From: Onchidella celtica | Taxonomy: Eukaryota; Mollusca; Gastropoda; Systellommatophora; Onchidiidae | Length of the DNA: 64,000 nt | Assembly (NCBI GenBank): GCA_963931925.1 | Contig: OZ007569.1 | Span: 62,720,542-62,784,541 of the forward strand | Reading direction: 5' to 3' | In this document: positions 957-42,500 of the stretch, in pieces | Position numbering within the stretch: the first letter of the stretch is position 1 | Layout of the letters: the number at the start of each line of letters is the position of its first letter | Made by a program: the position numbers and the translations under genes | The notes under the pieces: generated by a model | The model's input: the letters and a program-made list of their open reading frames with translations, nothing else | Database searches by the model: none | Told to the model about the DNA's origin: nothing

Positions 957-3900
957 TTCAACAGGTTTAGGAAGACAATAAACTTCGGCAAAAATTAAAT
1001 GCATGACATGACAGTGGTGATTCAACTGATTAACAATTTCTCCAGTCAAGATACATTGTGTACAGATTTATTCTGTTTTAAAAAAAAGAGGGTGGTGGTC
1101 ATACCTTTACAGGTCAGTCCAGGAAAGTAAAAGTTCGTTGAAATGTGGAGAAATCAATCTCGTTATAATGTACAGATAACTGGACATCCAGATGAATGCA
1201 GAAATTAATAGCTACATGACACTCGGGGTAGCTCAGATCTTTGACAAGTAATGCCCTCCCACCCCTAGTAAATTTAAAAAAATCAATTTAATAACTTGCT
1301 TGTGGAACATCCACAAATTTGAGGATCTTACGCGCAGGTGCATGCAACGGCTAACCCAGAGATAATTATTTACCACGTTTTAGTGTGAACGTAAGCAAAC
1401 AACGGAATCCAACTAATTCAGTGCATTAGCAATACCATTCCAAGTTCCTGGTCTCCTTCTTTCACCAAGGCAGAGAATAGCCTTAACCACACTGTTGGTA
1501 AACATACAAAAAAATTCGAGACGATTTCAAGTGGCACATGGTGTAGGCTACATTACAAAATCGGAGAGGCAAAGCAAGTCTACGTGCCGGATGTCATTAA
1601 CGAGAACAAGATCAGAGCTAGACCGAAGAACCAATGTGTGTGTGCGCGCGTCAGCGTGCGGTTGCGTGAATAAATGTTGTTGTCGAGTGAAAATGTCTAT
1701 GTATGGATGGCCATACCGCACCATGTCTTCCCATGTGCAAACCATTCCTTTTTATCTGTAACAAATTCTCATAGGACCAAGGATAAGTAATTAGTACAAT
1801 TTAGGACTCTCAAGATGACACATGGTGGTTCTTTCTCATAGTTTCAGTCCATGTAATGTATACATGTATGCACTTTTCCCCACTGTCTTTCAACTGCACA
1901 TCTGTCCACGCGCACTTGACATAGCCTACTCAGCCTCAATAAGACAGGTACTCTTTTTTTTTTTTCCCTACAAGTTTGTTCTAAATCACCGACTCACCGT
2001 GACAATCGCATCTTGCCAATATTATCTTGAGTCATGGGTTACGTTACAGATTGGTTATAAATCGGGTCATGTTACATATATGATATATATATATATATAA
2101 TTCATTTTGTAATAGCTCTTATCTGAAAAAGTGAGATAGGACAGATACATTTTGTGGCCTATCAAAACGTGATCTTTGTTATCTGTTTGGAAAATTCAGA
2201 AAACTGGGAACACGAAAGAGGTAGGCTACGACTGTGTCGCAAGAACGATGAGGGTGAAGAGGCAACTGTTCAGTTCGCCCCCCCCCCCTACCACCACTAC
2301 GTTTTTAATTCTACAGTTGGACGCTGCACAGCTTAACAAAAATCCGCTCAAGAATATTTATGTCCCTTGCCAGGTGATATCTTTTATCTTACCGTTACAA
2401 CCTTACAAGTGTAAACCTTTATTATCTTTTTCGTTCAGTCTATGACATTCCAAATGTTCAGGTAAACGATTAAAAAAAGAAAAAGGAAAACGAAATTACA
2501 AAATCATGACTACAATGAGGTGAAAGAGGCTGGTCATTAAAAGTATTACGTTTGTGATGAAAGGTCATGACCATCCTCGGTAGACTTTGGACCAGTTATT
2601 GCTTCAGGTGTTAGGGAAACTTTCGGACACTGAATGGAGTGGGTGGACTAATTGCCAAATCTCTCACTGACTTACCACTCCAGTAAGCTAATGAAGTGCG
2701 CGAAGGCCTGTGGAAGACATTAGCGGAGGAGGGGAGAGGCGAGCTGCGGTTGTAATTGCAGTCAAGGGTGTCTGAATTAGTGAATAAGGCCGCTGTGTCA
2801 AATCCGTAAAAAAAACAATTTGGAACTTTTCACTGTATTTTTAGTGCGCTAGCGCGGACGCCAGTGATGCTGCCCGGCTTGTTACCCTTTCTAACCTTTA
2901 GTTTAATTCTTCTCTAAGTGGCTGACCTCATGCTTCACTTTTGGCGGGACAATACCGTTAAATTTAGAGTCTTCTGGTGGTGTGGCCTTGACTTAAAACG
3001 TAACTCATCTTCTTCTTTCTTTCTTGTTTTTCTGTCCTCTTGTGCCGTTAAGGGTCGAAGGGAGACGCAACTTTCGGGCATGGGACCGATAGGTAACGCC
3101 TGCCATATTTCAGTTGTCTCTTTGACACCTTCTATCCGTCTTTCCCTGGGACACTCCTTTCCTCCGGATCCATGCCTGTTTCCAGTTATAAGCTCTATGT
3201 GCTGGCTGTTCGCTCTTATACATGTATTCATATATTATCTTAGCGTCTTTGAAATTTTAAAATTATCGGCGATTTGTTCTGAGAGTGGATCGCGGGCAAT
3301 GACTGGCATAGTCCGATTTTCAATGTTTTACAAGCCAGTAACCAGATGGTCCAAAAGGTCAGGGTTTGTCCTCGTTTGGGTTTTCCCTGCGGCTATCATG
3401 GTCAAGAGGGTCGTGCGAGTATGGGGATTCAGGTGATACAGCGGGATTTATTCTGTCAGATTTTTTAGCCATGTGTGATGAAGTGGGATGAGGCCAGGCG
3501 GAACATCAGCTTGTTTCCTGAACCCACCTTCGAAAGAGAAATTTGAGAATTTTGAGGGATCCAAGTGTAAGAAAGTCAGGGAAGTGTGTTACATAAGACC
3601 TACTTTGAGTGAAGACGAACGCCGCGCAAGCCCCGAAACGGAAGAAACACGTTTGACGTTTTCCAAAGTGAAGTATTTTCTATCGTTTTTTATCGGCTGG
3701 TATAATGTATATAAATTGTAATTTTGTACATAAAACCCATAAAATATACAATGTGTAATTCAATCATACAAAATGGAGACCCATGTGAATGTATGGTACC
3801 TGCAGAATTATAATAAATTATGGTCTAAGTATATTCGTAAACACGCAGAACTTTCACTGAAGTGGATTAGCACAATTATTATTCAGTGTCACAGTCAACA

Positions 3901-10300: not shown

Positions 10301-13300
10301 CATGATACAAGTTTTCTTTTGGTACAAACACACAAAAAAAGGAAAAGAATGATTTTGTCATCACTGTCATGTTACATGAATTTGGCTTTTACATAATAGT
10401 ACATTGTGATGAGTGATATGAGGTAAGAAGGACAAACAGTTAGATCAAGATAATTTGTCGTAAAATCAGTTTAAATTGAGAACATTTTCATGCTAGCCAT
10501 TACCTTTGCAAGTATAAATGCACATATGTATACAAGAAAGCCAACCAGCGCATGTATTTCCTCAGAAAGCTCCGCTTTTTAAAAGTTAGCAAAAGCATTC
10601 TGAAAATATTTTACACCATGGCTATTCAGAGCGTTTTGATGTATGGAGTTGTCTGTTGGGGAGGAAACATCTTACAAAAAGATAAAAATAAGATCAATAA
10701 TTTAATTAAAAAAGCATCCAAAATTTGTATCTGTGATCTGCCATATTTTGATGAGCTGTACACTGGTGCTTGTATTAAAAAAGCTAATATTATTATAAAT
10801 GACCCCCAACATCCCCTGAACAAGGAATATATAAGATCTGTAAGAAGTTTAAGGCTGTTGTCAAAGAAAACTAAAACTGAGCGCTACTTTAAATCGTTTA
10901 TTCCATCATCAACTAGGATGTTACAATAATGTCGTCATCTTGATCGTAATCTGTGCACAGTTGAATTATGTCCTGCGTGTCAGGTCAATGTGTTTTAGTT
11001 AGGGATGCATATTGTGTGCACTGTTAATTTTGTTAATTTAGTTAATTTATCAGTGTGTGTGTATATATGTGTGTGTGTGCGCTATGTATCATACTTTCTG
11101 CTTCTGTAACTGTATTGTTATGTATTCAATGATCAAAACAAATTTCCTTGTACAAGGACGAATAAAATTTATCTTATCTTATCTTATCTTATCTTACTAC
11201 TAAATTCATTGTTTTGAGAAAAAGTTACATATGAAAAACAAAGCAGCTCTATTCTGCCGTACATTGGAATTATGACATATGTTCATATGGGATGTTCTCT
11301 TTTGTCAGTAGCTCCAAAATCAAGAGGGTTTGGTCAAGTGTATGAGCATGTCGTCCCATGGATAGGAGAAGGCCTGATTGCCTCAAATGGAGCCATCTGG
11401 GCGAGGTCAAGACGACTCCTCACCCCAGCATTTCATTTTGATATTCTCAAACCTTATGTGGGTGTTTACAATGAGGCAGTGGATACACTTTTTGTAAGTA
11501 ATGAACATGTATATTACAGGTTTTCAGCCTGCTTTATATTAGCTGTGAGACTGTAGTGAACCTTAACAATTGAATAAATTAATTTTCTGAATATTTCCAA
11601 AATTCATGTAATGCAGAAGACATCAAGTATGTCATGTATTTATCAAGGATGGGAAATCCTCAGTTGTTGTTTTTTTTTTCATGAGAATGAAAATGTGTGG
11701 GCTCATATGTATGTCTGTGTTGTGTTTGGTGGTGGTGCGCTCAGTTCAGGAAATTTTTCTGCCTGAAGTCCCTCCCCATACCTGATTTGTGTACTTGTAT
11801 AACATTGTGAACAAGCTGTTAACAATAAACAAAATCCAACTTTTAAAGTTTATGCAGAGAGTTGATACAAGAAACACTTTGAATAAGTACTGTATTAAAT
11901 GTTTTGCTATCATTTCCTTCATTTCCAAGGCTCATTCTTTAAAAGTTATTTTCTCATTTCTTCCTAAGCCAACAATATTAGTTTGCAATTAGGTGATGGG
12001 TTTTCAGTGGGATGTGGGGGGGGGGGGCACAAGGACAATAAAGAGACTGACACTGAGACAGCTTCTATAAATAATCACCCATGGAGGATTTGCAGTATTG
12101 ATGTCAGCCAGTATATATATTGAAAAGACGGGGGAGTGGAGTGTAGAGGACAACTTTGAGGCAACCTAAATTTACATGTAATCACTTGTGGAAGATTTGC
12201 AACATAAAGGCTAACGTGGAGGGTTTGCAATACTGGCATCAGCCTCTGTATTGAAACGGTGGGGGGTTTTGCAATGTAGAGTCTAACACTGAGGCAGCAA
12301 ATAGAATAACCTGTGGTGGGTTTTTACAATGTGGAGGCTGATGCTGAGGCACTAATCTCTGCAGTAGATAATAGTTAAGCAACCAAGGATGAAAGAGAGT
12401 ATATGTGCTGGCAAATTGGAAGCGATTAAACAATATTAATTTTAAACGATCCAGTCAGCTTGTTAAAAATGCTTAGCACTTTTTTGCTTCGTCATCTCAA
12501 AAATATTTGTGTTGTTTTTTTTTCAGGAAAAGCTGGACAAATTTGCAGAGTCTGGTGAAAGTTTCGATTTTTGCCCACTGGTGACCTTATGCACACTTGA
12601 TGTCATTCTCAAGTGTGCAATGAGCTATGATGCTGATGTTCAAAGGGCAGAGTAAGTTACATCTTACATGTAGCACTAATTTCTTTGTTTGTCACTTCCA
12701 TTGTCACTATATGTAGTGGAACTTTCTCTTTATCATTGATAGGTAACCCTTTGTTCTGTTGGCTTTGCATTCATGGAAAAAGGAGGAGTAGACCTACATT
12801 TTAAAGGTTTTTATCTTGTATAACTCAATAGGCAAAGAGTACCATCTGCACCAAAACTTCTAATAAAATATAAGCATACAATCATCATCATCATCATTGC
12901 CTTTCTCACCCTGGATCAGGGTATAGGCCACCAACAAACACCTTCCATCCCTCTCTATCATGGGCCAGCCTCTTTACATTATTCCAAGTCTTTCCGCTTC
13001 GTTGCACATCATTTTCTCTGGCTCTTCTCCACGTTCCCCGCGGCCTTCCTCTTGATCTCTTGCCCTGGGGATTCCAGTCCAATACCTTCTTCGTGATGCT
13101 GTTTCCTGGCCTCCTGAGAGTGTGGCCGATCCATCTCCATCGCCTCCTACCAATTTCCTCTCTGACTGGGTTCTGTCTTGTTCTTTTCCATACAATTTCA
13201 TTGCTGACCTTGTCTGTCCATCTGATCTTAAGTAGCTTCCTCAAACATCTGTTGATGAAAACTTGGATTCTCTTTATGCAGGCCTGGGACGCATTCCAAG

Positions 13301-16300
13301 TCTCACATCCATACAACAGGACTGACTTCACGTTCGAGTTGAATATCCTCAGCTTTGTTTTTAGAGATATATCCTTGGTTCTCCAAATCTTGCTTAAGGA
13401 TGTGAAAGCTGCCTGTGCCTTTCCAATTCGTGCTTTGACTTCTGCCTCTGTTCCTCCCTTATTGTCAATGATACTACCAAGATAGCAGAAGGACTCTACA
13501 TCTTCCAGTGGTTGATCTCCTACTGTGACTTGTTCACTTAGGGGTGCAACAATTTTTAGGACCTTCGACTTCGCGGGATGTATCCTCAATCCAATAGATT
13601 CTGAAATTTTGTTTAGAGCTGTAGTCTTTGCTTGCATCTGGTCGTGTGTGTGCGACAATAGTGCCAAGTCATCTGCAAAATCTAGATCGTCCAGCTGTGT
13701 CCATGGGGTCCATTGTATGCCATTTCTTCCTCCACTGGTGGTTTCTTTCATAAGCCAATCAATCACCAGGATAAACAGAAATGGGGACAGCAAACAACCC
13801 TGCCTAACACCAGTCTTGATATCAAAGCTGTCAGTAAGCTCACCATCATGTACGACTCTGCAACTTGTCCCCTCGTACATGCTCTTGATAAGATTCACCA
13901 TCTTCTCTGGGATTCCATAATGTCTCAATATTCTCCACAGTGTTTCTCTATCGATGCTATCAAAGGCCTTCTCGTAGTCAAGGAAGTTCACTATCAGTTG
14001 GGAGTTCCACTCTAGCGACTGCTCTACTATGATTCTCAGCGTGGCGATCTGGTCGGTGGTTGATCGATTACTCCTGAAACCAGCTTGCTCCTCGCGAAGT
14101 TTTTGGTCTGTTGCATTCTGTATTCGCTTGAGAATAATCCGATTGAAAACCTTTCCTGGGATGGAGAGAAGTGTGATTCCTCTGTAGTTACTACAATTGC
14201 TGAGGTCCCCTTTTTTTGGGAGCTTCACGAGGTGTCCTTCCTTCCAGTCTTTTGGAAACTTGCCTCCGATCCAAATCCTCGAGAATAGTGAGTGCAGACC
14301 CTCTGCAGCCCCAGCAGCATCTGCCTTCAGCGCCTCTGGTGGGATCTGGTCTGGTCCAGCTGCCTTGCCTCGATTTAACTGCTTTATGGCATCATTAATC
14401 TCTGCTTTAGTCGGAGGGTCGCAACTGATCGGTAAATCATTTCTTGCGGGTAGAATGTCGGGTGGGTTGCTTGGTGGAGGTCTGTTCAAGAGGCTGTTAA
14501 AATGTTCTATCCATCTTTTTGCCTGAGCTTCCTTTCCAAAAATAGCCTTCCTGTTGTAATCCTTGACAGGAACTTCAGGTTTTCCATATTTTCCAGCAAG
14601 AGTCTTTGTAGTCTGGTAGAGGATCCTCATGTGTCCTCCTGTTGCTGCCTTCTCTGCTTTCTCTGCTAACATTCCTATGAACTCCTCTTTGTCTTTTTTA
14701 ATTGATTTTTTGACCTCTTTAGCTGATGCTCGGTACTCTTCCTGGTTACCAACTCTTGAGCTTCTTGTACGACTTGCATTTACCCGTTCTTTTAGGTCTC
14801 TTCTTATCCTTATCAAGTCCAGTGATTTTTGACTGATCCATTCCTTGTGTTCCACTTTCTTTTCCCCAATAACATCCTGACATGTCGATGTAAATACTCC
14901 TTTTACCTTAGCCCAGTGAGTCTCCAAATCTACTGTCTCTTCGAGGTCAACAAGGGGTTTGAATCTATTCCTCAGTGTCAGCTGGAACTCTTCCTTCTTG
15001 TCTCCATCCAGAAGGCTCACTTGAAACTTTCTCCTCTTTGTTCCTGCTCTGGTACCTTGTTTCTTGAGGCGGAGTTTGAGTCTTGCCAGCAGCATGTGAT
15101 GGTCAGATCCAACATCTGCTCCTCTCTGTACTATGACATCCTCTAGTGAGCGTCTGAATCGTCGGGTGATGCAAAAGTGGTCAATCTGATTTTCAGTTAC
15201 TCCATCCGGTGAAATCCAAGTGGCCTTATGGATCCTCTTGTGTGGGAATACTGAACCTCCAATCACATAGCTGTTAAATGCGCAGAAACTTGCAAACCGC
15301 TCTCCATTCTCATTCATTTGTCCTAAACCATTGCACCCCATAATGTCCTCATACCCTGTATTGTCCTGTCCTATCTTGGCATTGGCGTCTCCCATTATAA
15401 TGTTCACATCTTTTCTTGGCAATGTGTCAACTATTTCCTGAAGCTGGTTGTAGAAGTCGTCCTTGTCCTCATCGGTTGCTTCATTTGTTGGGGCGTATAT
15501 CTGCACAATGTTCATGTTGATGTTCTTGTTCTTAGTAGTAAATGATGCCAATATAATTCTCCTTCCATAGGGTTCCCATCCCCTCAGTGACCTCTGGGCG
15601 TGCTTGCTCAAGATGATCGCTACTCCTTCTGTATGCTTTTTGTCCTCCCTTCCAGAATACAAAATCTTTTCCCCAGTATTAAGTTGTTTCAGTCCGGACT
15701 GTATCCAGCGGGTCTCGCTAACTCCAAGTATGTGCAGTCTGTATCGCCTCATCTCCATTGTAACCTGGGCACTCTTTCCTGCTTCATACATGGAGCGGAC
15801 ATTCCACGACGCAATCCGGAGTGACTTGCTTGATGAAGGAGCAGTCGGGCCAGTGGCGTCCTTTCGGCTTTGTCCATTGTCCTTCATTGAATCTACAGGT
15901 GCAGATGCTCCCCCTTCTCCCAAGATAAAAGACTGATTTGAAGTATTTGCTTGTGTTTCTGTAACTGGTTTATTTTTACAGGGTGGGTAGTTGGCCCACC
16001 GCCAACTGGCTCTTCTCGGGAGACCAGGACCTTTGCACCTTTAGTCGCCTCTTACGACACGCAGTATCACGTCAGATGTATTCTCTGCTGTCCCTCTTTT
16101 ACAAGAGAGCCCCGCATCTGCACGGGCGCAATAAGCATACAATAGTTTCCAACAAAATCCCAAGAGAAAATAGCTTATAGGCATGGATTTGTCAAATTTG
16201 TGTGTGTCCTTAATGCTTACATTTGATATTTGCTTGTAAGAAAAGCAACCAAATTGGTCCAGGTTTGTTAACTAACATGATTTGCACATAAAGATTATAG

Positions 16301-19300: not shown

Positions 19301-22300
19301 CAATGGCAGGTACAAGCTGTGGCGAAACGACAATTACGAAAGATGGCGGCATGTATTTTGACCATGACATGGTTTAGGAAAATCATACTAAGCATTTTTT
19401 TTTCCCTCTTTGGGACTTCAAAATGAGATCATGCAAAGAGTAAAAACGAATAGAAAGATGTCATGCTAAGCGTTTTTTTTTTTCCCATTGGAAATGAGGC
19501 ATTGGGGAAGGGATAAAAGAAAAACATCATACAAAAAGAAGATCACATTTAGAGATTTCATTTTAAATGGAGCCGACTGTAATCCAAGATGTATCTAAAA
19601 CACTGAATTATGATTGGTTTGCAATAATAAACATTTGGTTGCAAAAGAGATCATGTGGACAGTTCATATTTAAACATCTGTGTCAGAAATACTTTAGAAC
19701 TTTTTACGAGTGAAATGAAACCTGTAACTTTTCAATGGGTAGTGGGTTAGTTGAAATTTGAAGATGCAGGGGACACAGTGTGAATGAGGCAGCAGATGCA
19801 AGATCCATAGTTTCAACACATAGATATATATGTTACACTGCGTTTCCTTAAAGATAAGTTATTGTTGAATATGCAGAAGGGTCTAGGTAATAGATGGGCC
19901 AAATGGGATTAACTTTGCAGGGAATAGAAGTATGTTTTGTTTGGTCCAATTTATTTATTTTAACAAGGTAGTCCAGCCGATTAGTTGGTTTAAAGACTGC
20001 ATGAGACTCCAGTGAGTTGTGACTAAACTTTCATGAATTTACAAGTGCAGTCACTGGCCAGTTGTTCTTTCATATTCTCATTTGCACTTGGTGGAATGAA
20101 ATAAGAAGCAGTAAGATGTGAATCTTTATGATGTGACACATAGTAGAGTAGCTGAGAGTAAATATGGGTTCAGTATAAGTGAACGAGCTTGGCATTTATG
20201 CATATTATCAGCTGGTGAGTACTGGGGAAAACTTGTTTGCTCACCAGACTGCCTTGTAAAATAGTCGATTTTTTAGCGTTATGATGTAAATTGTCCATGA
20301 AGCATACACACCATGTTGTTCAACAACATTCCAGGCCATGATACAACTGCCACTAGTGCCCCTTGGATTCTCTACACTCTAGCTCAGCACAGAGAATACC
20401 AGACTAAAGTTCAAGCTGAGATTGATGCCGTACTGGAAGGCAGGGACTCGGACTTCATTGAATGGTGAACCTTTTTTTAAATTTTATTTCATCTAAGATC
20501 ACTCACAGCAAAGCGGTTTCTTATTTTGCACATATTTGCCTTTTGTTTGTCTATGTTAGTATATCATAAGAAGGTGTAATAACAGATTCCATATTCAAAG
20601 TTTAATGATTTTGGCATGCAAACAGTGTTGTTGCATGTTTCATATCACATTTATATTAGCAAACCAAATATGATACTTATGCTAGATTTAGACCAAGTAC
20701 AAAATTGTTTCTTGTGGTACAGAGGAAGAGCACAGATCCCGTATTTTTTTTTTTTTTTTTAATTTTGAAGTTTGAGTAGGGGGATCGTTCATAAGGTTGT
20801 TCAAGAGCTGTGTTGCTCACGGCTGTTTAAATCGCTTGGAAAGCGGTACATTCTAGTTGCCGACCGAAATCCCCCGCCGACCTCCCACGATGCTGTCATA
20901 AATCACCTGTCAGCCATGTGCACATCCATGACGGCATGCCATCCCTGGTCAAGCCTGCGTAATACGATTCCACCAATTTTCGCATACTTTTGCAGCGCGA
21001 TATCCTCCGATCTAATAATGCTACAGCAGCATGCAAGATCTCATTTTAAACGTCAGGATTGTACCGACAGGACGATATAACTTTTGCTGCTTACTTTTTA
21101 AGATTGTTGAGTTTATCAGCTGATATTTCGAATGTGTGTTTTTTAGAGTTTGGAATTTGATTTTCAACATTAGTTCTCTTTGATCTTCAATATTTTGCGT
21201 GGGCTGCCTCTGATTTCAATATAAAATCAATATTTCGAAAGTGTAAAGGCTAACCTCTAACCTATGCAAGTTTAGTGCATGTATAGGTTCTGTGTGATGT
21301 GTTAACGATTTTTGAAAAAGTTGTGCGACTCAATCGAGGCGCTTCTGTGCCAGTTTTTGTTTGTTTGCCGCTTGTTATTAGCAGCTTGTATGAAATATAT
21401 TGCAAAATGGAGCACCATGAAGAACATATCCACGTTGAGCGCCTCCACAAACTGTGTCGGACATGTGGTGGGGGGACACTTAGCAAACAGCAAAAACGGC
21501 AAAAGCGGAAACCAAAGAAGTGCAAGGACTTTGAGAATGACATTTTGCTTGCTTTCGGTGTATCCATCACAGGCGACTTGAATCATATTCATTCCTCAAC
21601 TATTTGTTACTCGCGTTTGGCCATGATAGGAAACATCAAACGCCATGCCTTCAAAGGTAGTATTGTTAACGCAAGGAAGTTGGCCCAAGGAAGTTCACAT
21701 TTATGGACTGAATTTCAGCCGCACAGGACGGCCGCAGATTGTGTATTACGTACACAGTATTTAAAGACTAGTTTGGGGAGTAGACATGTTTCAAATGACT
21801 CCACACCACATCAAGACAGAGACCATACAATAATTTCCACAGCAGCATGTTCAGCCACGACATTAGAGGACATAATCCCTTCGCCGATGACACAAAATTC
21901 AACATGTGAGAACACAAACGATAGCATGTACAATACAAGACGCAATCCATCATGACATAACGGAAGCCACATCAGCTACATTACATGACACATCCAACCT
22001 ATCAATGATCTGTAGTACAACATGCGAGGACACAACGCTAACAGAAAACACACCGTCATTTAGCAGTGGCCAGCAGAGTTGAGCGGCCCCCATATTGCTA
22101 CAGCAACGCCACACAAACCTGTAAGGGTTATGATAGACAGCAACACCTCACCGGCATTTAAACACGACAGGTTATTTTCCCAGTCATTCGAACTGTCCCC
22201 GACACGGCCACTTAAACAACTACTACTACTATTTCCTGTTGCACCCACTGGTGCTTAGGGCAGCAACAAAGGATCTCCAGCCCTGTCTGTCCTGGGCCAT

Positions 22301-24721
22301 CTTTGCGAGAGTTCCCCATGAGTGATTGAAGGATTTTCAGTTCCTCCTTCATCCTGCTAGCAGTTTCCTTTCGGCTTTCACTACTTGCATTCATACGAGT
22401 CGCGAGGTACTCAGAAGGTCCATCACATCCAGAACGTTGGTTTTTCCATGTTGCTGTTTCCGTAACGATTTTTGTTTCTCCAAGTAAGGTCACCCCAACA
22501 AGGATTTCAGGGTAGGGTTGTTAGCCCTACGCCCAACCCCCGAACCTGGAGGGCCGGTCTGTTCAATCTTGTCTGGTCCTTCCCCCATGACCTGTCCAGC
22601 TTGCTTAAAGCTATCAGGGGCACGAGGCCTCCGCTGGCTTAGCTCCTGGGATCACTGGGACACGCAAGCCACTCCTCCACGTCAAGGCATGAACAATTGG
22701 AGCAGCACTTAAACAAGAAGAACATAAACTTCCCACATATTTTGAGCCCCTGAGCCCTAGGTCAGGGCCCATCTGCTCACAACTAGACAGCATCGACTGG
22801 TTAAGTGCAGGTGTGACATGACACTGACAGTTAGGCGAACGGAAAATGATCGTCGAACTGGAATAACTCGAGACTGGATATCTATACATGAATGCAGTCA
22901 TGTGAGTTTTGAAATTTAACCTATCTCTCATGTTGTGTGATGATTTCACCTCATTCGATGGGGGAAATCATATCTAATTTCATATCTGAAATTATGAACA
23001 ATGTACTAATTTGAGGAAATATTGTATAACTTTGTGCCTCTATATCTCTATTACGATGGTGAATACATTTCTATGGTTCACTGTATACACTTACAATATA
23101 TCGCAAAATTGTTATGTGTTTACAAAAATATGACCTATGGGCTGATTTGGGTGTGAGATTGCTTTGATTACCGATAAAAACAGCGAGTCAGAAGCGCTAT
23201 ACGGGCTCTGGGAAACCCCCCTCAAATCGAGGTCGCAACCGGGTCAGGTCACCGGTAGCGGGGAGCCCGCTCGACTGGGCTCGGCAACTAGAATACCGCC
23301 TCTTAACAGCCGTGTGCTGAGAAGACACGTCTCCCATATTATGGTTAATTTATCCATTGCAATTTGGAGTCCCCGAATATGTCTTTGCTTGTTTCAAATT
23401 TGTGAGGAAAAGTCCATGTGTTTTGGGATTCTCTACAGGTCAGATCTTACTAAACTGCAGATGCTGTCACTGTGTATCAAGGAGAGCATGCGTCTTTATC
23501 CAGTGGTCCCATTTATCCAACGGAGACTGACAGAGGATGTTGTTATTGAAGGAAACACAATTCCAGCCAACACCAATGTCTCTGTGGCTATAATTCACTT
23601 ACACAGAAACCCAATGGTTTGGGATGAACCAGATGAATTCAAACCTGAGAGATTTAAAGCTGAAAACCTAAAAGACAGAGATAGCTTTGCATTTGTACCC
23701 TTCTCAGCTGGTTCCAGAAACTGTATCGGCCAGAATTTTGCACTGAATGAAGAAAAGGTTCTCATCGGTCGTATTCTACGCAGGTAAGATACCTACCAGG
23801 CATAGGAAAAACTTTTCAGTCATGTTTCTTATAAATAAAAAACAACCACCATAGTTGGGCTTCCATGATGGAGAAGGATTTAGATTAATTATATCTTGTT
23901 ATCAAGAGAGAGAGAAGTGCATTTATAACACATTTTGGACATTTGAATTAAGAGACAAGGAGTTTACCCCATTGCAAATTTTATTTAAAATTATGCAATT
24001 TGGAATTTACTGCACGCACACAGTAATGGCCCCTATATTCTCTCTTCCATTGAAAAAGTGATTATATCTTTGTCATATTGAAGAACACTGAAAGGCTTCA
24101 TCAGCAATACTTTAATACCAGAGAAATATTAAAAGAGAACAGTGAAAATGAAGAGAACAGTGCATAAGTATTCTAAACGAAGATCTCATTCAGTATTATC
24201 CTGCTTGAAATTATACCACATTTATCATTCATGGATATAATTATACCAATGGAGTCTGAAGAGAACATTTTTTTTAAGGAGTATTGTCAGATAGTGAAAA
24301 GGAGAGAATTAGAACTTATCCAAGTCTAGGTCACATTTTTTTCAGTGGCAAGCTATTTGAGGAATTAGTATATGTGAAACACTTTTCTTCTTGACACTGA
24401 ATGTTATGAATACATGTAACTACTTGTGCACATTTGTGTGGACTTTTTCTTTTTGTTATTTCAGGTATGATGTGGAACTTGACCCCGATGGACCACCAGT
24501 TGAAAGGAAAGCACAGGCTATACTGAAGAGTGACAAAGGAATCTGGTTTCGGCTGAAGCGCCGGCAGTTATAACAGAGCAAATGCAGAGCTACCGTGTTT
24601 GCTGACAAAGTCATGTTTAGCTGTCAGTCCTAATCATAACTTAAGTGGCGGACACAGTATGATGGCTGCAACAGACTGAGAATATCATGTTACTGTAATC
24701 AATGCTTGACTGTATAATAAA
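7119..24721 (+). CDS. CYP4: Cytochrome P450 family 4 monooxygenase, ten coding exons, complete
   Basis: A haem-thiolate monooxygenase of the endoplasmic reticulum. Family 4 enzymes typically hydroxylate fatty acids and eicosanoids near the omega end, with electrons from NADPH-P450 reductase. Splicing 7153-7332, 7723-7873, 11309-11493, 12527-12651, 16635-16694, 17135-17258, 17921-18050, 20335-20464, 23439-23783 and 24465-24573 gives 512 residues, the usual family length, with consistent phase at every junction. Residues ~1-35 form a hydrophobic N-terminal anchor. The family-4 block [16 protein letters not shown] is in exon 3, the I-helix AGHDTT at 318-323, the K-helix ExxR at E377-R380, PERF at 431-434, and the haem loop FSAGSRNCIG with the ligand at Cys457. 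The start is the first ATG after the 7118 acceptor and opens a hydrophobic anchor. One oddity is Ala318 where many family-4 enzymes carry the Glu that bonds covalently to haem. The subfamily (4F/4V-like) is not decided. Confidence 0.95.
7723..7873 (+). CDS. CYP4: CYP4 coding exon 2
   Basis: Acceptor TTGTGCAG and donor after TCATCAG|GTTACA. It encodes residues 61-110 and the first base of codon 111, including the stretch WVGPLRPTIVTYHPE, typical of the region before helix B in family 4. Confidence 0.92.
7874..10519. other. CYP4 intron 2, unique part
   Basis: AT-rich intronic sequence with no ORF or repeat structure that I can recognise before the LINE fragment that begins near 10520. Confidence 0.5.
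10520..11196 (+). mobile_element. 5'-truncated LINE fragment, L2/CR1-like
   Basis: The open frame at 10552-10929 encodes the C-terminal end of a non-LTR reverse transcriptase: YKKANQRMYFLRKLR, then SVLMYGVVCWGG, then DPQHPLNKEYIRS. Fish and invertebrate L2-type elements end this way. About 240 bases of 3' UTR follow, ending in AATAAAATTTATC and a (TTATC)n tail of about five units. The copy is heavily 5'-truncated and lies in sense orientation in CYP4 intron 2. Clade assignment is from memory of the motif and tail style. Confidence 0.75.
11309..11493 (+). CDS. CYP4: CYP4 coding exon 3
   Basis: Acceptor TTTGTCAG and donor GTAAGT. It encodes residues 111-172 with the helix-C block [20 protein letters not shown], the clearest family-4 signature in the protein. 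The helix-C Trp and Arg are the residues that normally contact the haem propionates. Confidence 0.95.
12040..12350. repeat. Degenerate tandem repeat with 'GGAGGATTTGCA' units
   Basis: Four to five diverged units share the pattern GTGGAGGRTTTGCAATRY followed by a GGCTRAYRCTGAGGC-like block, at spacings of roughly 60-110 bases. It sits in CYP4 intron 3 just before exon 4. Its origin is unknown. Confidence 0.5.
12527..12651 (+). CDS. CYP4: CYP4 coding exon 4
   Basis: Acceptor after a T-tract ending TTTCAG, donor GTAAGT. It encodes residues 173-213, including TLCTLDVILKCAMSYD, the usual family-4 helix E segment. It ends in phase 2. Confidence 0.93.
12906..15923 (-). CDS. RTE-A endonuclease-reverse transcriptase, 1005 codons
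   Basis: The protein both nicks the genomic target and copies the element RNA onto it. The N-terminal APE-like endonuclease (residues ~35-290) shows SWNVRSMYEAGK, VSETRW, YAPTNE, MGDANAKIG, QIDHF and SDHH, so all expected catalytic positions are present. The central reverse transcriptase shows AAGPDQIPPEALK, NFLDYEKAFDS, GVRQGCLLSPF and the catalytic FADD. The C-terminal tail carries RRRWRWIGHTLRR and RGRPRGTWRR, a GRP-type basic region common in this group. There is no internal stop. The stop codon TGA is followed in the same frame, after three codons, by the tail's own TGA repeats. Confidence 0.93.
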   Translation of the reverse strand: MGEGGASAPVDSMKDNGQSRKDATGPTAPSSSKSLRIASWNVRSMYEAGKSAQVTMEMRRYRLHILGVSETRWIQSGLKQLNTGEKILYSGREDKKHTEGVAIILSKHAQRSLRGWEPYGRRIILASFTTKNKNINMNIVQIYAPTNEATDEDKDDFYNQLQEIVDTLPRKDVNIIMGDANAKIGQDNTGYEDIMGCNGLGQMNENGERFASFCAFNSYVIGGSVFPHKRIHKATWISPDGVTENQIDHFCITRRFRRSLEDVIVQRGADVGSDHHMLLARLKLRLKKQGTRAGTKRRKFQVSLLDGDKKEEFQLTLRNRFKPLVDLEETVDLETHWAKVKGVFTSTCQDVIGEKKVEHKEWISQKSLDLIRIRRDLKERVNASRTRSSRVGNQEEYRASAKEVKKSIKKDKEEFIGMLAEKAEKAATGGHMRILYQTTKTLAGKYGKPEVPVKDYNRKAIFGKEAQAKRWIEHFNSLLNRPPPSNPPDILPARNDLPISCDPPTKAEINDAIKQLNRGKAAGPDQIPPEALKADAAGAAEGLHSLFSRIWIGGKFPKDWKEGHLVKLPKKGDLSNCSNYRGITLLSIPGKVFNRIILKRIQNATDQKLREEQAGFRSNRSTTDQIATLRIIVEQSLEWNSQLIVNFLDYEKAFDSIDRETLWRILRHYGIPEKMVNLIKSMYEGTSCRVVHDGELTDSFDIKTGVRQGCLLSPFLFILVIDWLMKETTSGGRNGIQWTPWTQLDDLDFADDLALLSHTHDQMQAKTTALNKISESIGLRIHPAKSKVLKIVAPLSEQVTVGDQPLEDVESFCYLGSIIDNKGGTEAEVKARIGKAQAAFTSLSKIWRTKDISLKTKLRIFNSNVKSVLLYGCETWNASQACIKRIQVFINRCLRKLLKIRWTDKVSNEIVWKRTRQNPVREEIGRRRWRWIGHTLRRPGNSITKKVLDWNPQGKRSRGRPRGTWRRARENDVQRSGKTWNNVKRLAHDREGWKVFVGGLYPDPG
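15982..16000 (-). promoter_or_regulatory. RTE-A 5'-leader hairpin
   Basis: A 6-bp stem (GGTGGG with CCCACC) encloses a 7-base loop in the leader of the element, about 60 bases upstream of the ORF. RTE-B has the same stem length, loop size and position but different paired bases (see 43892-43910), so the structure is conserved rather than the sequence. A second stem, GTCG with CGAC, lies further upstream in the leader. Confidence 0.6.
16635..16694 (+). CDS. CYP4: CYP4 coding exon 5 (60 bp micro-exon)
   Basis: Acceptor TTTGCAG and donor GTGGGT. One base completes codon 214, 19 codons follow, and two bases start codon 234. The sequence HPYVQATRDLTEIWSTRS matches the family-4 helix F entrance and restores phase between exons 4 and 6. 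Confidence 0.9.
17135..17258 (+). CDS. CYP4: CYP4 coding exon 6
   Basis: Acceptor TTCTTTAG and donor GTAAGA. It encodes residues 234-275 with PWLWPDFIFRLTSKGRLF, the F-G region that shapes the substrate channel in family 4, then HKVAEELIEKRK. Confidence 0.93.
17921..18050 (+). CDS. CYP4: CYP4 coding exon 7
   Basis: Acceptor AAATCAG and donor GTAAAA. It encodes residues 276-318, including the family block LDFLDILLTARDEDG and the first half of the I-helix. The last full codon is GCA (Ala318), the position that is Glu in covalently haem-linked family-4 enzymes. Confidence 0.94.
18132..19579. mobile_element. Tigger/pogo-like non-autonomous element
   Basis: Ends CAGTCAACATTGCTTAAG and (reverse) CAGTCGGCTCCATTTAAA are flanked by TA on both sides. 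Internal CATCATAC and AAGCATTT/AAGCGTTT motifs recur near both ends. No transposase ORF is present. It lies in CYP4 intron 7 and carries a SINE-like insertion. The ends are only moderately similar, so the boundaries are tentative. Confidence 0.55.
18390..18514 (+). mobile_element. SINE-like insertion with (AAT)n tail
   Basis: The 3' part TGTAAAGCGCATAGAGC, then GGATATGCGCTATATAAA followed by (AAT)n, is the end structure seen on many metazoan SINEs and their LINE partners. No clear pol III A/B boxes were found upstream, so the 5' limit is uncertain. Confidence 0.5.
20335..20464 (+). CDS. CYP4: CYP4 coding exon 8
   Basis: Acceptor ACATTCCAG and donor GTGAAC. It encodes residues 319-361 and begins GHDTTATSAPWILY, completing the I-helix oxygen-activation motif. 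The split at the I-helix glycine is consistent on both sides. Confidence 0.94.
21407..22820 (+). pseudogene. RAG1 N-terminal-like zinc-binding protein, decayed
   Basis: From the ATG at 21407 the frame reads HVERLHKLCRTCGG, DFENDILLAFGVSI, DLNHIHSSTIC and LWTEFQPHRTAADC. This matches in order the RAG1 region with LCRICG, the LIAKVFRIDV helix, DSIHPTEFCHNC and EWHPHTPSCDIC. The second cysteine of two CxxC pairs is Arg here (CYSR and CVLR), so zinc binding is probably lost. The frame stops at 21955. Similar-composition coding continues in another frame to 22080, and a third frame runs from 22086 to 22208 (ending SPTRPLKQ) and resumes after the RTE insertion as EEHKLPTYFEPL until a stop near 22820. 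No DDE core is visible. It is a transposon relic, not a host immune gene. Confidence 0.7.
22220..22705 (-). mobile_element. Internally deleted RTE-B copy with intact ends
   Basis: The 486-bp element has both the 5' leader with the first ~50 codons and the last ~115 bases of RTE-B, joined directly at CTGAAAATCC, so about 2.8 kb is missing. A perfect 11-bp duplication, CACTTAAACAA, flanks it (22209-22219 and 22706-22716). Apart from the deletion it differs from the full-length copy at 40761-44085 by only one base that I noticed. The fused frame runs into the (GTA)n reading of the tail. Confidence 0.88.
23439..23783 (+). CDS. CYP4: CYP4 coding exon 9 (ExxR, PERF and haem loop)
   Basis: Acceptor CTCTACAG and donor GTAAGA. 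The largest exon, residues 362-476. It holds KESMRLYPVVP (ExxR), the beta-1 region, FKPERF and FVPFSAGSRNCIGQNFA with the haem-thiolate cysteine. Confidence 0.96.
24465..24573 (+). CDS. CYP4: CYP4 last coding exon
   Basis: Acceptor TTATTTCAG. It encodes the C-terminal strand region through GIWFRLKRRQL and ends with TAA. Confidence 0.93.
24716..24721 (+). terminator. Candidate polyadenylation signal of CYP4
   Basis: AATAAA lies 143 bases after the stop codon. It is the first canonical signal downstream, but longer 3' UTRs using later signals are possible. Confidence 0.5.
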
Positions 24722-36500: not shown

Positions 36501-39500
36501 AGCAAAATATTGGACAAATTCTGTAAAGAACTATGTTTGGCTACGAAACCATATAGTGGTAAGTATTTGTTGAAATCTCTTTTAGCACTGTCAAAAATAT
36601 GTGAGGGGGATTATTTGTATGTACACTTTTCATTTAATAAGTAAGGAACTTTATTTTTATCAATTTTTTTTCTAAAAAATGAGCTATAGGATGACATGAA
36701 AACTTAATAGAGGCCTGACATCTAATGAAACAGTCAAATAGTTCCTGCAAAGTGCCACTCAATTGTCTAAGTTGAGCATCTCTGTGGATGGCTCTTGAAC
36801 AGTGCGGGGAAATCCCATCGAGTGAAAGTAGGTCAGTCAGGGTCGGGCCAGAGTGTAAGAAGTTGTGAGCGATGGTATGATAATGAATGCAAGGAAAAAC
36901 GTGAAGTATTTAAGTGTGCTGAGAGAAAATTTTGCATGACCGTCAGTGTGGAAGACTGGGAGAGTATGTGCACTGCAAGAAAAGAGTTTAGAAAGTGTTG
37001 TCGTAAGAAAAGGAGGAAAGAGAAAATATTATCGGCAGATAAATTATTCGAGCTTAGCCGTTCTGACCCAAGGAGTTTTTGGAGACAACTAAAAACCAAC
37101 AAAACTCAGGTAATAGGAAAGTGCGATTTTGTAGACTATTTCCAAACCCTAAATAACAGGTTATCAATGTTGGGGGAAGGGGAAGAAGAAGAAATTAGTC
37201 GGTGGGAGGGGAATGAGGATCAACATTATGACCAACTACTTGATGAAGAAATATCAGTGGATGAATTAGAGTGGGCTATTAATAGTTTGAAAAGTAATAA
37301 AGCCGCAGGTTACGACAATATCGTTAATGAATTCATTAAATATAGTGGTTACCTCGTTAAAGTCGTTTTAGTAAAATTATTTAATGCTATTTTAAAATTA
37401 GGTTGTTTTCCGAAATCGTGGGCAGTCGGAGAAATCGTTCCAATTTATAAAGGTGGTCACAAAGATGACCCCAAGAATTATCGAGGAATAACTCTTTTGA
37501 GCTGTCTGGGTAAACTTTTTACTAATATTCTAAATAATCGTCTCACACACTGGGCAGAATGTAATAATGTTTTCTGTGATAACCAGTTTGGCTTCCGTAA
37601 TAACAAGGGCACAACAGACTGTATGTTTATATTGCATCATCATCATCATTGCCTTTCTCACCCTGGATCAGGGTATAGGCCACCAACAAACACCTTCCAT
37701 CCCTCTCTATCATGGGCCAGCCTCTTTACATTATTCCAAGTCTTTCCGCTTCGTTGCACATCATTTTCTCTGGCTCTTCTCCACGTTCCGCGCGGCCTTC
37801 CTCTTGATCTCTTGCCCTGGGGATTCCAGTCCAATACCTTCTTCGTGATGCTGTTTCCTGGCCTCCTGAGAGTGTGGCCGATCCATCTCCATCGCCTCCT
37901 GCCAATTTCCTCTCTGACTGGGTTCTGTCTTGTTCTTTTCCATACAATTTCATTGCTGACCTTGTCTGTCCATCTGATCTTAAGTAGCTTCCTCAAACAT
38001 CTGTTGATGAAAACTTGGATTCTCTTTATGCAGGCCTGGGACGCATTCCAGGTCTCACATCCATACAACAGGACTGACTTCACGTTCGAGTTGAATATCC
38101 TCAGCTTTGTTTTTAGAGATATATCCTTGGTTCTCCAAATCTTGCTTAAGGATGTGAAAGCTGCCTGTGCCTTTCCAATTCGTGCTTTGACTTCTGCCTC
38201 TGTTCCTCCCTTATTGTCAATGATACTACCAAGATAGCAGAAGGACTCTACATCTTCCAGTGGTTGATCTCCTACTGTGACTTGTTCGCTTAGGGGTGCA
38301 ACAATTTTTAGGACCTTCGACTTCGCAGGATGTATCCTCAATCCAATAGATTCTGAAATTTTGTTTAGAGCTGTAGTCTTTGCTTGCATCTGGTCGTGTG
38401 TGTGCGACAATAGTGCCAAGTCATCTGCAAAATCTAGATCGTCCAGCTGTGTCCATGGGGTCCATTGTATGCCATTTCTTCCTCCACTGGTGGTTTCTTT
38501 CATAAGCCAATCAATCACCAGGATAAACAGAAATGGGGACAGCAAACAACCCTGCCTAACACCAGTCTTGATATCAAAGCTGTCAGTAAGCTCACCATCA
38601 TGTACGACTCTGCAACTTGTCCCCTCGTACATGCTCTTGATAAGATTCACCATCTTCTCTGGGATTCCATAATGTCTCAATATTCTCCACAGTGTTTCTC
38701 TATCGATGCTATCAAAGGCCTTCTCGTAGTCAAGGAAGTTCACTATCAGTTGGGAGTTCCACTCTAGCGACTGCTCTACTATGATTCTCAGCGTGGCGAT
38801 CTGGTCGGTGGTTGATCGATTACTCCTGAAACCAGCTTGCTCCTCGCGAAGTTTTTGGTCTGTTGCATTCTGTATTCGCTTGAGAATAATCCGATTGAAA
38901 ACCTTTCCTGGGATGGAGAGAAGTGTGATTCCTCTGTAGTTACTACAATTGCTGAGGTCCCCTTTTTTTGGGAGCTTCACGAGGTGTCCTTCCTTCCAGT
39001 CCTTTGGAAACTTGCCTCCGATCCAAATCCTCGAGAATAGTGAGTGCAGACCCTCTGCAGCCCCAGCAGCATCTGCCTTCAGCGCCTCTGGTGGGATCTG
39101 GTCTGGTCCAGCTGCCTTGCCTCGATTTAACTGCTTTATGGCATCATTAATCTCTGCTTTAGTCGGAGGGTCGCAACTGATCGGTAAATCATTTCTTGCG
39201 GGTAGAATGTCGGGTGGGTTGCTTGGTGGAGGTCTGTTCAAGAGGCTGTTAAAATGTTCTATCCATCTTTTTGCCTGAGCTTCCTTTCCAAAAATAGCCT
39301 TCCTGTTGTAATCCTTGACAGGAACTTCAGGTTTTTATATTGCATAGTTTGATAGAATTATTTCAAGAGAAGTAAAAAAGTTTGTATTGTGCTTTTGTTG
39401 ACTTTGAACGGGCATTCGACAGCATAAATAGAAGAGCACTATGGTTTAAACTGGAGCAAAGGGGAGTAACTAAACAAATGACTAATTTATTGAAAAACAT

Positions 39501-42500
39501 GTATAGTAAAATCAGGTTATGTGTGAGGGATGCCAGCAGTGTGAGTGAAGCAACTGATACTTGTTTCTTTTCGTCAAATGTAGGACTATTTCAGGGTGAA
39601 TCTTTGTCGCCATTTTTATTCTCGATGTTTATTAATGACTTGCATGATTGGTTGTCTGCAAAAGATGTCAAGGGCGTACATATAGAAGAATGTTTGATAA
39701 TGATACTGATGTTCGCAGATGACATGGTCTTATTTAGCGATAGTAGGCAAGGACTACAACAAGGTTTGAATGCTCTGAATGGATATTGTAATGGGTGGGG
39801 TTTGACTGTGAATACTGGTAAGACAAAGTGTGTGGTTTTTAGCAAGGGAGGGAAGTCTGGCGTGCGGGATAGATGGATGTACAATGATATAACTCTGGAA
39901 ACCGTTAGTTCATTCAAGTATCTTGGATTTATATTTAGTAGCACAGGTAAATTTTCTAAAGGTATTCAGGTGCAAGTGGATCAAGCACAGAGAGCTTTAT
40001 TTGGTTTGAAGGCTTATTTGCATAAAAATCCAGAGCTGAGTCCTTCGTTACAGCTACGACTATTCAATACATTAATAAAGCCTATACTTTTATATACTTG
40101 TGAAATCTGGGGATTTGCTGAAGCTTGGCCCATTGAGCAAGTCCACCTCACATTTCTGAAGTCTATTCTAGGTGTAAGAAAAACAACCCCAAATGCTTTT
40201 ATATATTTTGAATTGGGAGTTTACCCTCTAAAAATTGACCGTCAGGTTAGACTATTGAAATTCTGGGTTAAAATATTAGGCTTAGACGACAATAGTACCG
40301 TTAAAAAAGTTTATAGCAGATTATTATCAGCCACAGAAAACTACACAAGTACAATTAACTGGGCTTCACTGACAAAGAAAATACTGGAGAAATCTGGATT
40401 TGGATACATCTGGGAAAGTCAAAAGGTTGATCAAACTTCGTTGTTTTTATCTGAATTTGAACAACGTCTACGTGACAATTTTCAACAAACATGTCGAAGT
40501 GACATAGAACATTTAAGTGAGAATCGGCTATATAGACATTTAGCTGTTGAATTTTACTCAGAAAATTACTTACATGAAGTAAAGCAGAAGCATTTAAGGA
40601 TAGCCATAGCCAAGATAAGATTGGGCTCTCACAACTTTATGGTGGAGAGGGGAAGGTGGCAGAGGCCTAAACTGGAGTATGTTATGAGATTATGTGAGAC
40701 CTGTAATGAATTGGAGGACGAATTTCACGTGTTATTAACTTGCAAAAAATTCAAAGATATTACTACTACTACTATTTCCTGTTGCACCCACTGGTGCTTA
40801 GGGCAGCAACAAAGGATCTCCAGCCCTGTCTGTCCTGGGCCATCTTTGCGAGAGTTCCCCATGAGTGATTGAAGGATTTCATCTCTGCCTCGATTGTTCT
40901 CCGCCAGGTTGCCTTGGGTCTGCCTCGCTTGCGCCGTCCCTCCGGTGTCCACTGAAGTGCTGTTTTGGTTATAGAATTTGCTTCCTTTCGCAGCACGTGT
41001 CCAAGCCATCTCCATCGCCTCTTCGTGATGATGTTGGCTATTTCTTCTTGCTTGCATCGCCTTAGTAGTTCCTGATTAGAAATCTTGTTTGGCCAAAAGA
41101 TGCGGAGAATCCTACGAAGACATGTGGTGTGGAAGGAAGACAACTTGGCGAGGTCACCTTCTGTCATTCGCCAACACTCTGATCCATACAGGAGTGTGGA
41201 TAGGACACAGCTTTGGTACAGTCTGATCTTGGTGTTGATGCCGTATTGTGTCGATTTCCAGATGTTGCTCATACTTTGAAAGACAGCCCTTGCATTTCCC
41301 AGCCTACTTTGGATGTCCTCCTTTGTGCCACCCTCTGGTCTGATAATGCTACCAAGGTATTTAAATTTGTCCGTCGTGGTGAGGTTCTTGTCATCTACTT
41401 GCACTGGTGCTGGAGTGTCTACATTTAGGGTCATAATCTCTGTCTTCTTCTGGCTAATCCGAAGGCCTACTTTGCATCCAAAATTATGTAGTCTCTGCGT
41501 CTTATCTTGCATGTGTTGGTGACTATGTGACAATAGCGCAAGGTCATCTGCAAAGTCCAAATCCTCTAGGTTGTCGAAGAGTGTCCATCTGATGCCTCTT
41601 GGTGCATCCTCTGTAGTTTTCCGCATAATCCAGTCGATTACGAGGTTAAACAAAATTGTTGACATCACACATCCTTGCCGTACACCAGTTTTCACTTCAA
41701 AGGATGCATCACTGTTTCCGACACTGCAACTGAAGTTCTTGTAAAAGCTTTTGATGAGTTCAACAAGCTTGCTGGGAATCCCATAGTGCCGAAGAATGCG
41801 CCATATACTCTCTCTGTGGATGCTGTCGAAGGCCTTTTCGAAGTCAACGAAGTTCACATAGAGCTGCCTTTGCCATTCTGAACACTGTTCTATGATGTTT
41901 CGGAGTGTGAAGATCTGGTCAATGCATCCTTTCCCCTTTCGGAATCCGGCCTGTTCCTTTCTCAGTGTCTTGTCCACAGCATCTGACATACGTTGCACAA
42001 TGATCTTGGCAAGGATTTTGCTGGGTATAGAAAGGAGAGTGATACCACGCCAGTTGTTGCAATCACTGAGTGCTCCTTTCTTGGGTATTTTCACTATTCT
42101 GCCTTCATTCCAGCTCTTTGGTACTGCTTCTGCTTCCCAGATAGCTGTGAACAGTGGCTGAAGGATGGTGGCTGACTGATCCGGATCTGCTTTGAACAGT
42201 TCTGCAGTCAAGTTGTCTTTTCCTGGGGCTTTGCTGTTTTTTAGGCTCTTTATTGCTGCCACTATCTCTTCTTTCTTTGGTGGATCTATGTTGATGTCAA
42301 GGTCTTCAGCAGCATCTTGTATTATTATTCTATCTTCAGGTGGTGGCCGGTTTAGTAATTCCTGAAAGTGCTCTGTCCAGCGTGTATCCTGTTCTCGTTC
42401 TGTAGTCAGTGGTTTCCCATTCTTGTCTTTGATTGGAACACTTGGTCTTCCACCGTATTTGCCACAAATGCGCTTAGTGATCTTGTGGAGCTTACCCTGT

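Follow-up and report, generated by a model that had tools for sequence, protein, structure and literature searches.

A decayed, internally deleted transposon of predicted Chapaev type carries a RAG1-like zinc domain in a P450 intron of Onchidella celtica

The window, a stretch of 64,000 nucleotides from the gastropod Onchidella celtica (GCA_963931925.1, contig OZ007569.1, positions 62,720,542 to 62,784,541 of the forward strand), contains a P450 gene, one intron of which (20465-23438) carries a DNA transposon (Table 1). The exons on both sides of the intron join in frame and the downstream exon matches PF00067, while the element itself shows both ends and a TGCT target site duplication (TSD), in agreement with the original prediction of a transposon inside a P450 intron. 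The element measures 2497 bp with the nested LINE included and is bounded by CAC...GTG inverted ends; its end, CACGGCT, has four of seven bases in common with the RSS heptamer. The expectation that useful flanking element sequence had been kept was also borne out by the ends of the element.

Table 1. Features of the P450 intron and its transposon, numbered from the first base of the window.
Feature	Position	Strand	Remark
P450 exon end upstream of host intron	20395..20464	+	Frame continuity only; start approximate, no score of its own
Left 4-bp TSD, TGCT	20814..20817	.	
Non-autonomous transposon, predicted Chapaev type	20818..23314	+	Ends and TSD; relatives genome-wide
Left terminal inverted repeat	20818..20863	+	Starts CACGGCTGTT, contains ATTCTAGTTGCCGA
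Truncated ORF	21407..21955	+	182 codons and stop; RAG1 CND / Chapa-like zinc domain
LINE TSD CACTTAAACAA, copy 1	22209..22219	.	
Nested, internally deleted LINE	22220..22705	-	5' 370 bp and 3' 117 bp of the full-length LINE, 1 base common
LINE TSD CACTTAAACAA, copy 2	22706..22716	.	
Post-deletion remnant	22717..22794	+	Includes transposase codons located past the first deletion (tblastn, P0002 775-800); intervening core deleted
Right terminal inverted repeat	23281..23314	-	Ends AACAGCCGTG
Right 4-bp TSD, TGCT	23315..23318	.	
Next P450 exon	23439..23783	+	PF00067, E=2.7e-44 for ORF 23146-23784

The ORF of 182 codons that an ATG opens at 21407, with its stop at 21953-21955, contains LCRTCG, ILLAFGVSITGD, IHSSTIC and WTEFQPH....C in this order, which is the order of motifs named in the original prediction. 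The zinc domain occupies about codons 1-125, after which an 11-base deletion breaks the frame. Two cysteines of the zinc pairs, Cys70 and Cys115, were both replaced by Arg, and the Cys115Arg change is also present in the majority sequence of the compact class of relatives described below. Because these two residues are Arg, the zinc finger of the window copy is predicted to be damaged. The copy had been called decayed, and the broken frame and the lost cysteines agree with this. Of the range given for the domain, 21407..22820, the part from 21407 to 21955 holds as the domain ORF, and 22220-22705 turned out to be the nested LINE and not domain. Further scans of the window protein added little: NCBIfam gave no match, viral contigs gave zero pattern matches, and prokaryote genome contigs gave nine pattern matches, none of which was confirmed as a relative. 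Three other frames in the window (20769-21077 and 22488-22709 on the plus strand, 22614-22967 on the minus strand) matched no Pfam family. Single-sequence structure prediction of the window domain reached a mean pLDDT of only 38.7. A weak tblastn match at window 3134-3304 (E=0.006) involved the query part upstream of the Met.

The nested LINE is flanked by an 11-bp duplication, CACTTAAACAA, and matches a full-length copy at 40763-44085 of the window with 100% identity over 117 bp and 99.7% over 370 bp. The latter lies on the minus strand and has an uninterrupted ORF of 1042 codons (40775-43900). Since the 370-bp 5' piece was found at 100% identity (rounded) in 36 of 40 match rows (the best 40 of 612 candidates), the LINE family is very young. 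The deleted LINE form occurs with 99% identity in two more places, C17:17064343-17064831 and C11:41194114-41194594, and may therefore itself be spreading. A copy of this young LINE is also contained in a long-class copy of the transposon (L013, 3246-6576), and the 370-bp piece of the window is 99.5% identical there. A second LINE-like family lies on the minus strand of the window at 12909-16040, 37661-39334 and 49783-50967, one copy having a 1044-codon open frame; by eye, one copy seemingly interrupts another retroelement frame near 36771-40869.

The original prediction had likened the zinc domain to the N-terminus of RAG1 and had proposed a profile search as the check. RAG1_imp_bd (PF12560) ranked first in Pfam for the window protein, with E=0.0019 and 18.3 bits, below the cut-off of 23.3 bits. 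The N-domains of two relatives scored above this cut-off: the uninterrupted L011 with E=9.3e-8 and 32.4 bits, and L052 with E=2.4e-6. None of six controls made from the L011 N-domain (five shuffles, one reversal) matched PF12560; one shuffle gave three unrelated weak matches with E of 0.17 or worse. When the window protein was compared with the PDB using phmmer, RAG1 (21wb) was the sole match up to E=10, at E=0.24, which is not significant alone. Profiles built from related N-domains placed RAG1 21wb first, with E=5.3e-5 for alignment A3, 3.4e-6 for A5 and 9.4e-5 for the more diverse A7, and the full-length profile also placed RAG1 first (E=0.0014). By hhalign, the domain aligned to a 116-residue RAG1 fragment with 95% probability and 30% identity over 73 columns. 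Overall, the profile comparisons indicate that the window domain is RAG1-like beyond chance.

Three Cys pairs (C17/20, C67/70 and C112/115) were invariant across the six diverged N-domains of A7. In the excerpt of PMC3124419 that we consulted, the central non-core domain of RAG1 comprises residues 87-217, and C110/113, C175/178 and C210/213 were tested as zinc ligands. The two domains are alike in the three ordered Cys pairs and in the basic stretch between the first two. On the other hand, vertebrate RAG1 differs in its catalytic core and in TSD length, and the window copy is without two of the cysteines.

Relatives were sought in the own genome (1.14 Gb, 43 contigs). Its molluscan nature is borne out by 33 matches to PF14830, the hemocyanin beta-sandwich domain typical of molluscs, and by a fragment that matched hemocyanins, keyhole limpet KLH1 among them. 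Copy counts are lower bounds, as the best candidates alone were scored, which for the DNA search were the best 40 of 923. An exact 4-bp TSD was found in all 23 distinct copies with both ends (28 rows from 31 loci, representing 23 places and 5 repeats; L029, L030 and L031 are without one or both ends). CA..TG ends with a short TSD were present in 12 of the 16 loci of another set, the other four (L031, L040, L046 and L047) having no complete detected end. With L004 and insertions set aside, loci with both ends fell into two size classes, of about 4.06 kb and about 2.03 kb. Mean pairwise identity was 99.2% among nine long copies, 98.2% among 12 compact copies and 94.3% between the classes. The high identity of the long copies suggests that the long class moved recently.

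In the long class, the transposase frame is whole in seven of the 11 copies examined, six with 951 codons from Met and one with 950. The remaining four are broken, L009 and L013 by insertions and L014 and L016 by frameshifts. A protein-level search (52 match rows, with the best 46 of 3449 candidates scored) yielded at least 15 stop-free full-length transposase frames, 14 of them with 991 codons and one with 990, counted from stop to stop. The ORF of the 4.06-kb element starts at base 588 and leaves about 0.6 kb on each side, and its protein of about 951 aa combines the RAG1-like zinc domain with a DDE core, the two joined by a variable linker. Between lineage A (majority sequence) and lineage B (L041), omega was 0.23 for the N-domain, 0.45 for the linker and 0.15 for the core, values that point to constraint on the N-domain in the full-length lineages. 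The synonymous divergence between L011 and L041 was 0.55 in the RAG1-like domain and 0.16 in the core, a difference suggesting that element lineages may have exchanged their 5' and 3' parts. Four more Chapaev-type families with the same N-domain were observed in the genome (L029, L037-L039, L052 and L061), with open frames of 969 codons in L029, 947 in L052 and 917 in L061. A genome-wide search had been suggested for better copies, their ends and any linked DDE or RAG2-like ORF; it returned better copies, ends and a linked DDE core, and, among the plus-strand frames of uninterrupted 4.06-kb copies, no RAG2-like ORF.

Eleven of the 12 compact copies analysed have two deletions in common, of 1367 and 648 alignment columns, and L004 has a different, larger one. 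These common internal deletions account for the missing core of the window class, and the window copy is accordingly an internal-deletion derivative of a core-bearing transposon. In the tree, the window copy formed the first branch of the compact class, with 0.996 support for the remaining members. In each of the 11 other compact copies, ATA replaces the ATG and codon 96 is a stop; the window copy has retained its ATG. Copies with such dead ORFs are nonetheless alike and cleanly inserted, suggesting that the compact-class protein was probably dispensable in cis. The transposase of the long copies is the likely mover.

The assignment of the family relied on the core. The L011 transposase matched PF06918 (DUF1280) with E=5.3e-16 and 59.3 bits against a cut-off of 25. 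PF06918 was found in six of the seven members of alignment A1, the seventh being the window fragment with its core lost, and its core was also matched in L052, L029 and L061. PF12560 was found in four of the seven A1 members; two of the others are without the region, and full-length L029 has the region but was unmatched. Alignment A6 shows GGDHG, GDYxxL, CLWC, H(4)H and GEQGxE in this order in L011, L029 and L052; in L031 a gap of one residue falls in the first His stretch. The core contains D, D, C(2)C, H(4)H and E in sequence, and is predicted to be catalytic. A 4-bp TSD is a hallmark of Chapaev. For the CACTA-Mirage-Chapaev-Transib clade, the consulted sections of PMC12730594 describe a DDE core in which C(2)C and H(3-4)H lie between the second D and the E, an arrangement that the family follows, and give 2-5 bp as the TSD length in the clade as a whole. 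An excerpt of PMC3985635 equates DUF1280 with putative Chapaev transposases and places it in one clade with RAG1. A partial text of PMC4411706 attributes to Chapaev transposons a Chapa domain, named there as a truncated N-terminal part of RAG1, also reports this domain in TransibSU, and places a RING in two Chapaev subgroups. Given the PF06918 match, the motif order and the Chapa domain, we filed the family as Chapaev, a name that rests on PF06918 and on the published descriptions of Chapaev. The window family resembles Chapaev (CMC superfamily; PF06918/DUF1280) in its N-terminal Chapa zinc domain, its DDE core with C(2)C and H(4)H, and its CAC...GTG ends; the window copy differs in being without the core. 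Scans of four full-length proteins (P0002, L029, L052 and L061) gave no significant RING match, and a PDB search with the core profile returned no RAG1 chain.

A RAGL element (RAG1L-RAG2L) was considered and rejected. RAGL and Transib have a TSD of 5 bp, as given in the consulted part of PMC7204232. The TSDs here are 4 bp and not 5, and the sequence flanking the ORF is too short for a RAG2-like gene, which argues that the family is not RAGL. No RAG2-like gene was found in the plus-strand frames of uninterrupted 4.06-kb copies, including about 0.6 kb on each side of the ORF. The RAG1 core (PF12940) was not among the Pfam matches of P0002 up to E=10; a whole-genome search with PF12940 gave no match, but its controls matched nowhere either.

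Taken together, the feature is almost certainly a cut-and-paste DNA transposon of Chapaev type (CMC superfamily) that is both dead and non-autonomous. The original prediction had read it as support for a transposon history of the RAG1 N-terminus apart from the DDE core. In a 2021 hypothesis paper (PMC8355894, seen in excerpt), RAG1 is derived from Transib and a stand-alone N-RAG-TP transposon, and N-RAG-TP of Aplysia californica is described as an element made of RAG1-N-like sequence. It is highly improbable that the window copy is N-RAG-TP proper, that is, an independent transposon with a RAG1-N-like protein as its sole product and the source of RAG1's N-terminus. The window copy does encode the N-domain alone, as the description of the Aplysia element would have it, but only through deletions. 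Other copies share its ends and its N-domain and encode an uninterrupted DDE transposase, and the window class is deleted; for these reasons the RAG1-like domain appears to have no separate transposon history in this family, the window copy having lost its core. The eleven compact copies also look amplified despite a dead ORF. Compared with the Aplysia element as described, the coreless state here is secondary, by deletion.

A second coreless class could be taken in favour of N-RAG-TP proper, as its 399-residue ORF was open in 10 of 10 copies analysed, chosen for having it. These elements, of about 2.58 kb and from a sister lineage, encode the N-domain followed by an in-frame core deletion, and the ORF ends at a TAG (CAG in L041) just before the catalytic Glu region. 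The class corresponds to the core-bearing L041 with a segment removed in frame and a common stop added, so that a derivation from an L041-like form argues against an independent element. Its deletion ends are unlike those of the window class, which indicates a separate origin. The 399-residue open frame was absent in three further copies examined (L046, L047 and L048), and 12 of 150 scored rows had this frame length, 402 codons counted between stops, one of them with a stop inside the match. Among the ten copies there were 38 non-synonymous to 13 synonymous changes, an omega of 0.81 that is indistinguishable from neutral. Given this near-neutral change, the open N-domain-only ORF is probably explained by youth, with no evidence of independent function among the copies. 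Truncated P-element proteins act as competing regulators, and the coreless classes might by analogy act through an N-domain fragment that competes for the element ends. This would suit the 399-residue class, which keeps the zinc domain and combines an in-frame deletion with an end just before the catalytic Glu region. We consider it unlikely, as the ORF bears no sign of selection after amplification and youth alone accounts for the open frames; the window class would be unable to act in this way, the other sampled members having no start codon and the window copy no intact set of zinc cysteines.

The N-domain might instead be a ZAD-type zinc finger, unrelated to RAG1. The zf-AD model (PF07776) matched the N-domains of L011, L029, L037, L052, L055 and L061 with E from 0.0012 to 7e-6, all protein-level scores being below the Pfam cut-off; the best, L055, had 26.6 bits against 28 and reached 28.5 bits only with its frame neighbours, in a genome search. 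For the L011 N-domain zf-AD ranked second (E=0.0012), and it scored better than RAG1_imp_bd in full-length L052 (0.00045 versus 0.00071) as well as in the L029 and L037 N-domains. For L055 and L061 it was the only one of the two models found at E up to 1. The original prediction had named a better match to an unrelated zinc-finger family as the result that would count against it: zf-AD was not among the matches of the window protein, but outscored RAG1_imp_bd in some relatives. By contrast, RAG1_imp_bd was ahead for the window protein and for the N-domains of L011 and L052, and RAG1 came first in the PDB for three N-domain profiles and the full-length profile, while the ZAD structure 1pzw (Grauzone) appeared in the A7 search at E=1.5 only. 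A ZAD finger unrelated to RAG1 is therefore improbable. RAG1's own domain also matched zf-AD weakly (E=0.0047), so that RAG1-like and ZAD-type need not be alternatives.

The genome search with zf-AD gave 33 rows, led by L055, whose frame of 333 codons includes an N-domain of this kind (3.2 kb examined); 10 of the 33 rows lay on transposon-linked loci (L057-L060, L037, L038, L039, L061, L062 and one further row). ZAD (zf-AD, PF07776) is like the N-domain in its CxxC...CxxC spacing and its weak profile match, and ZAD is not known to have the third Cys pair. A limited literature search found no paper naming both the zinc-finger associated domain and RAG1. From these profile matches, a link between RAG1, Chapa and ZAD is suggestive. 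The central non-core zinc domain of RAG1, the Chapa domain of Chapaev transposases and the ZAD domain found in zinc-finger transcription factors of insects may tentatively be regarded as one superfamily carried by Chapaev-type transposons, a proposal that we hold at somewhat less than even confidence.

Returning to the Chapaev-type reading, two internal deletions in an ancestor of the window class took most of the core and left both ends. The compact copies would then have been moved in trans by the transposase of uninterrupted copies, which presumably binds the ends beginning with CAC, cuts, and inserts with 4-bp duplications. By analogy with work on RAG1, the N-terminal zinc domain may aid nuclear entry and DNA binding and not catalysis. 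The window copy also took the LINE insertion and lost two zinc cysteines. On balance, the initial observation was right and its surroundings were largely right; the evolutionary reading was not borne out in this genome.

Stand-alone RAG1-N-like elements in this mollusc have at least two origins by internal deletion of a transposon with both the domain and a DDE core, and the origin of RAG1's N-terminus becomes directly testable in Aplysia. The deletion origin agrees with the view, taken in the excerpted text of PMC4411706, that the fusion of domain and core dates back to an ancient common ancestor. Functional work can also draw on uninterrupted, near-identical parent copies in the genome. Finally, a link of RAG1's N-terminus to insect ZAD proteins is possible; if the proposed superfamily is true, insect ZAD regulators and the RAG1 N-terminus would be two separate exaptations of one transposon domain.
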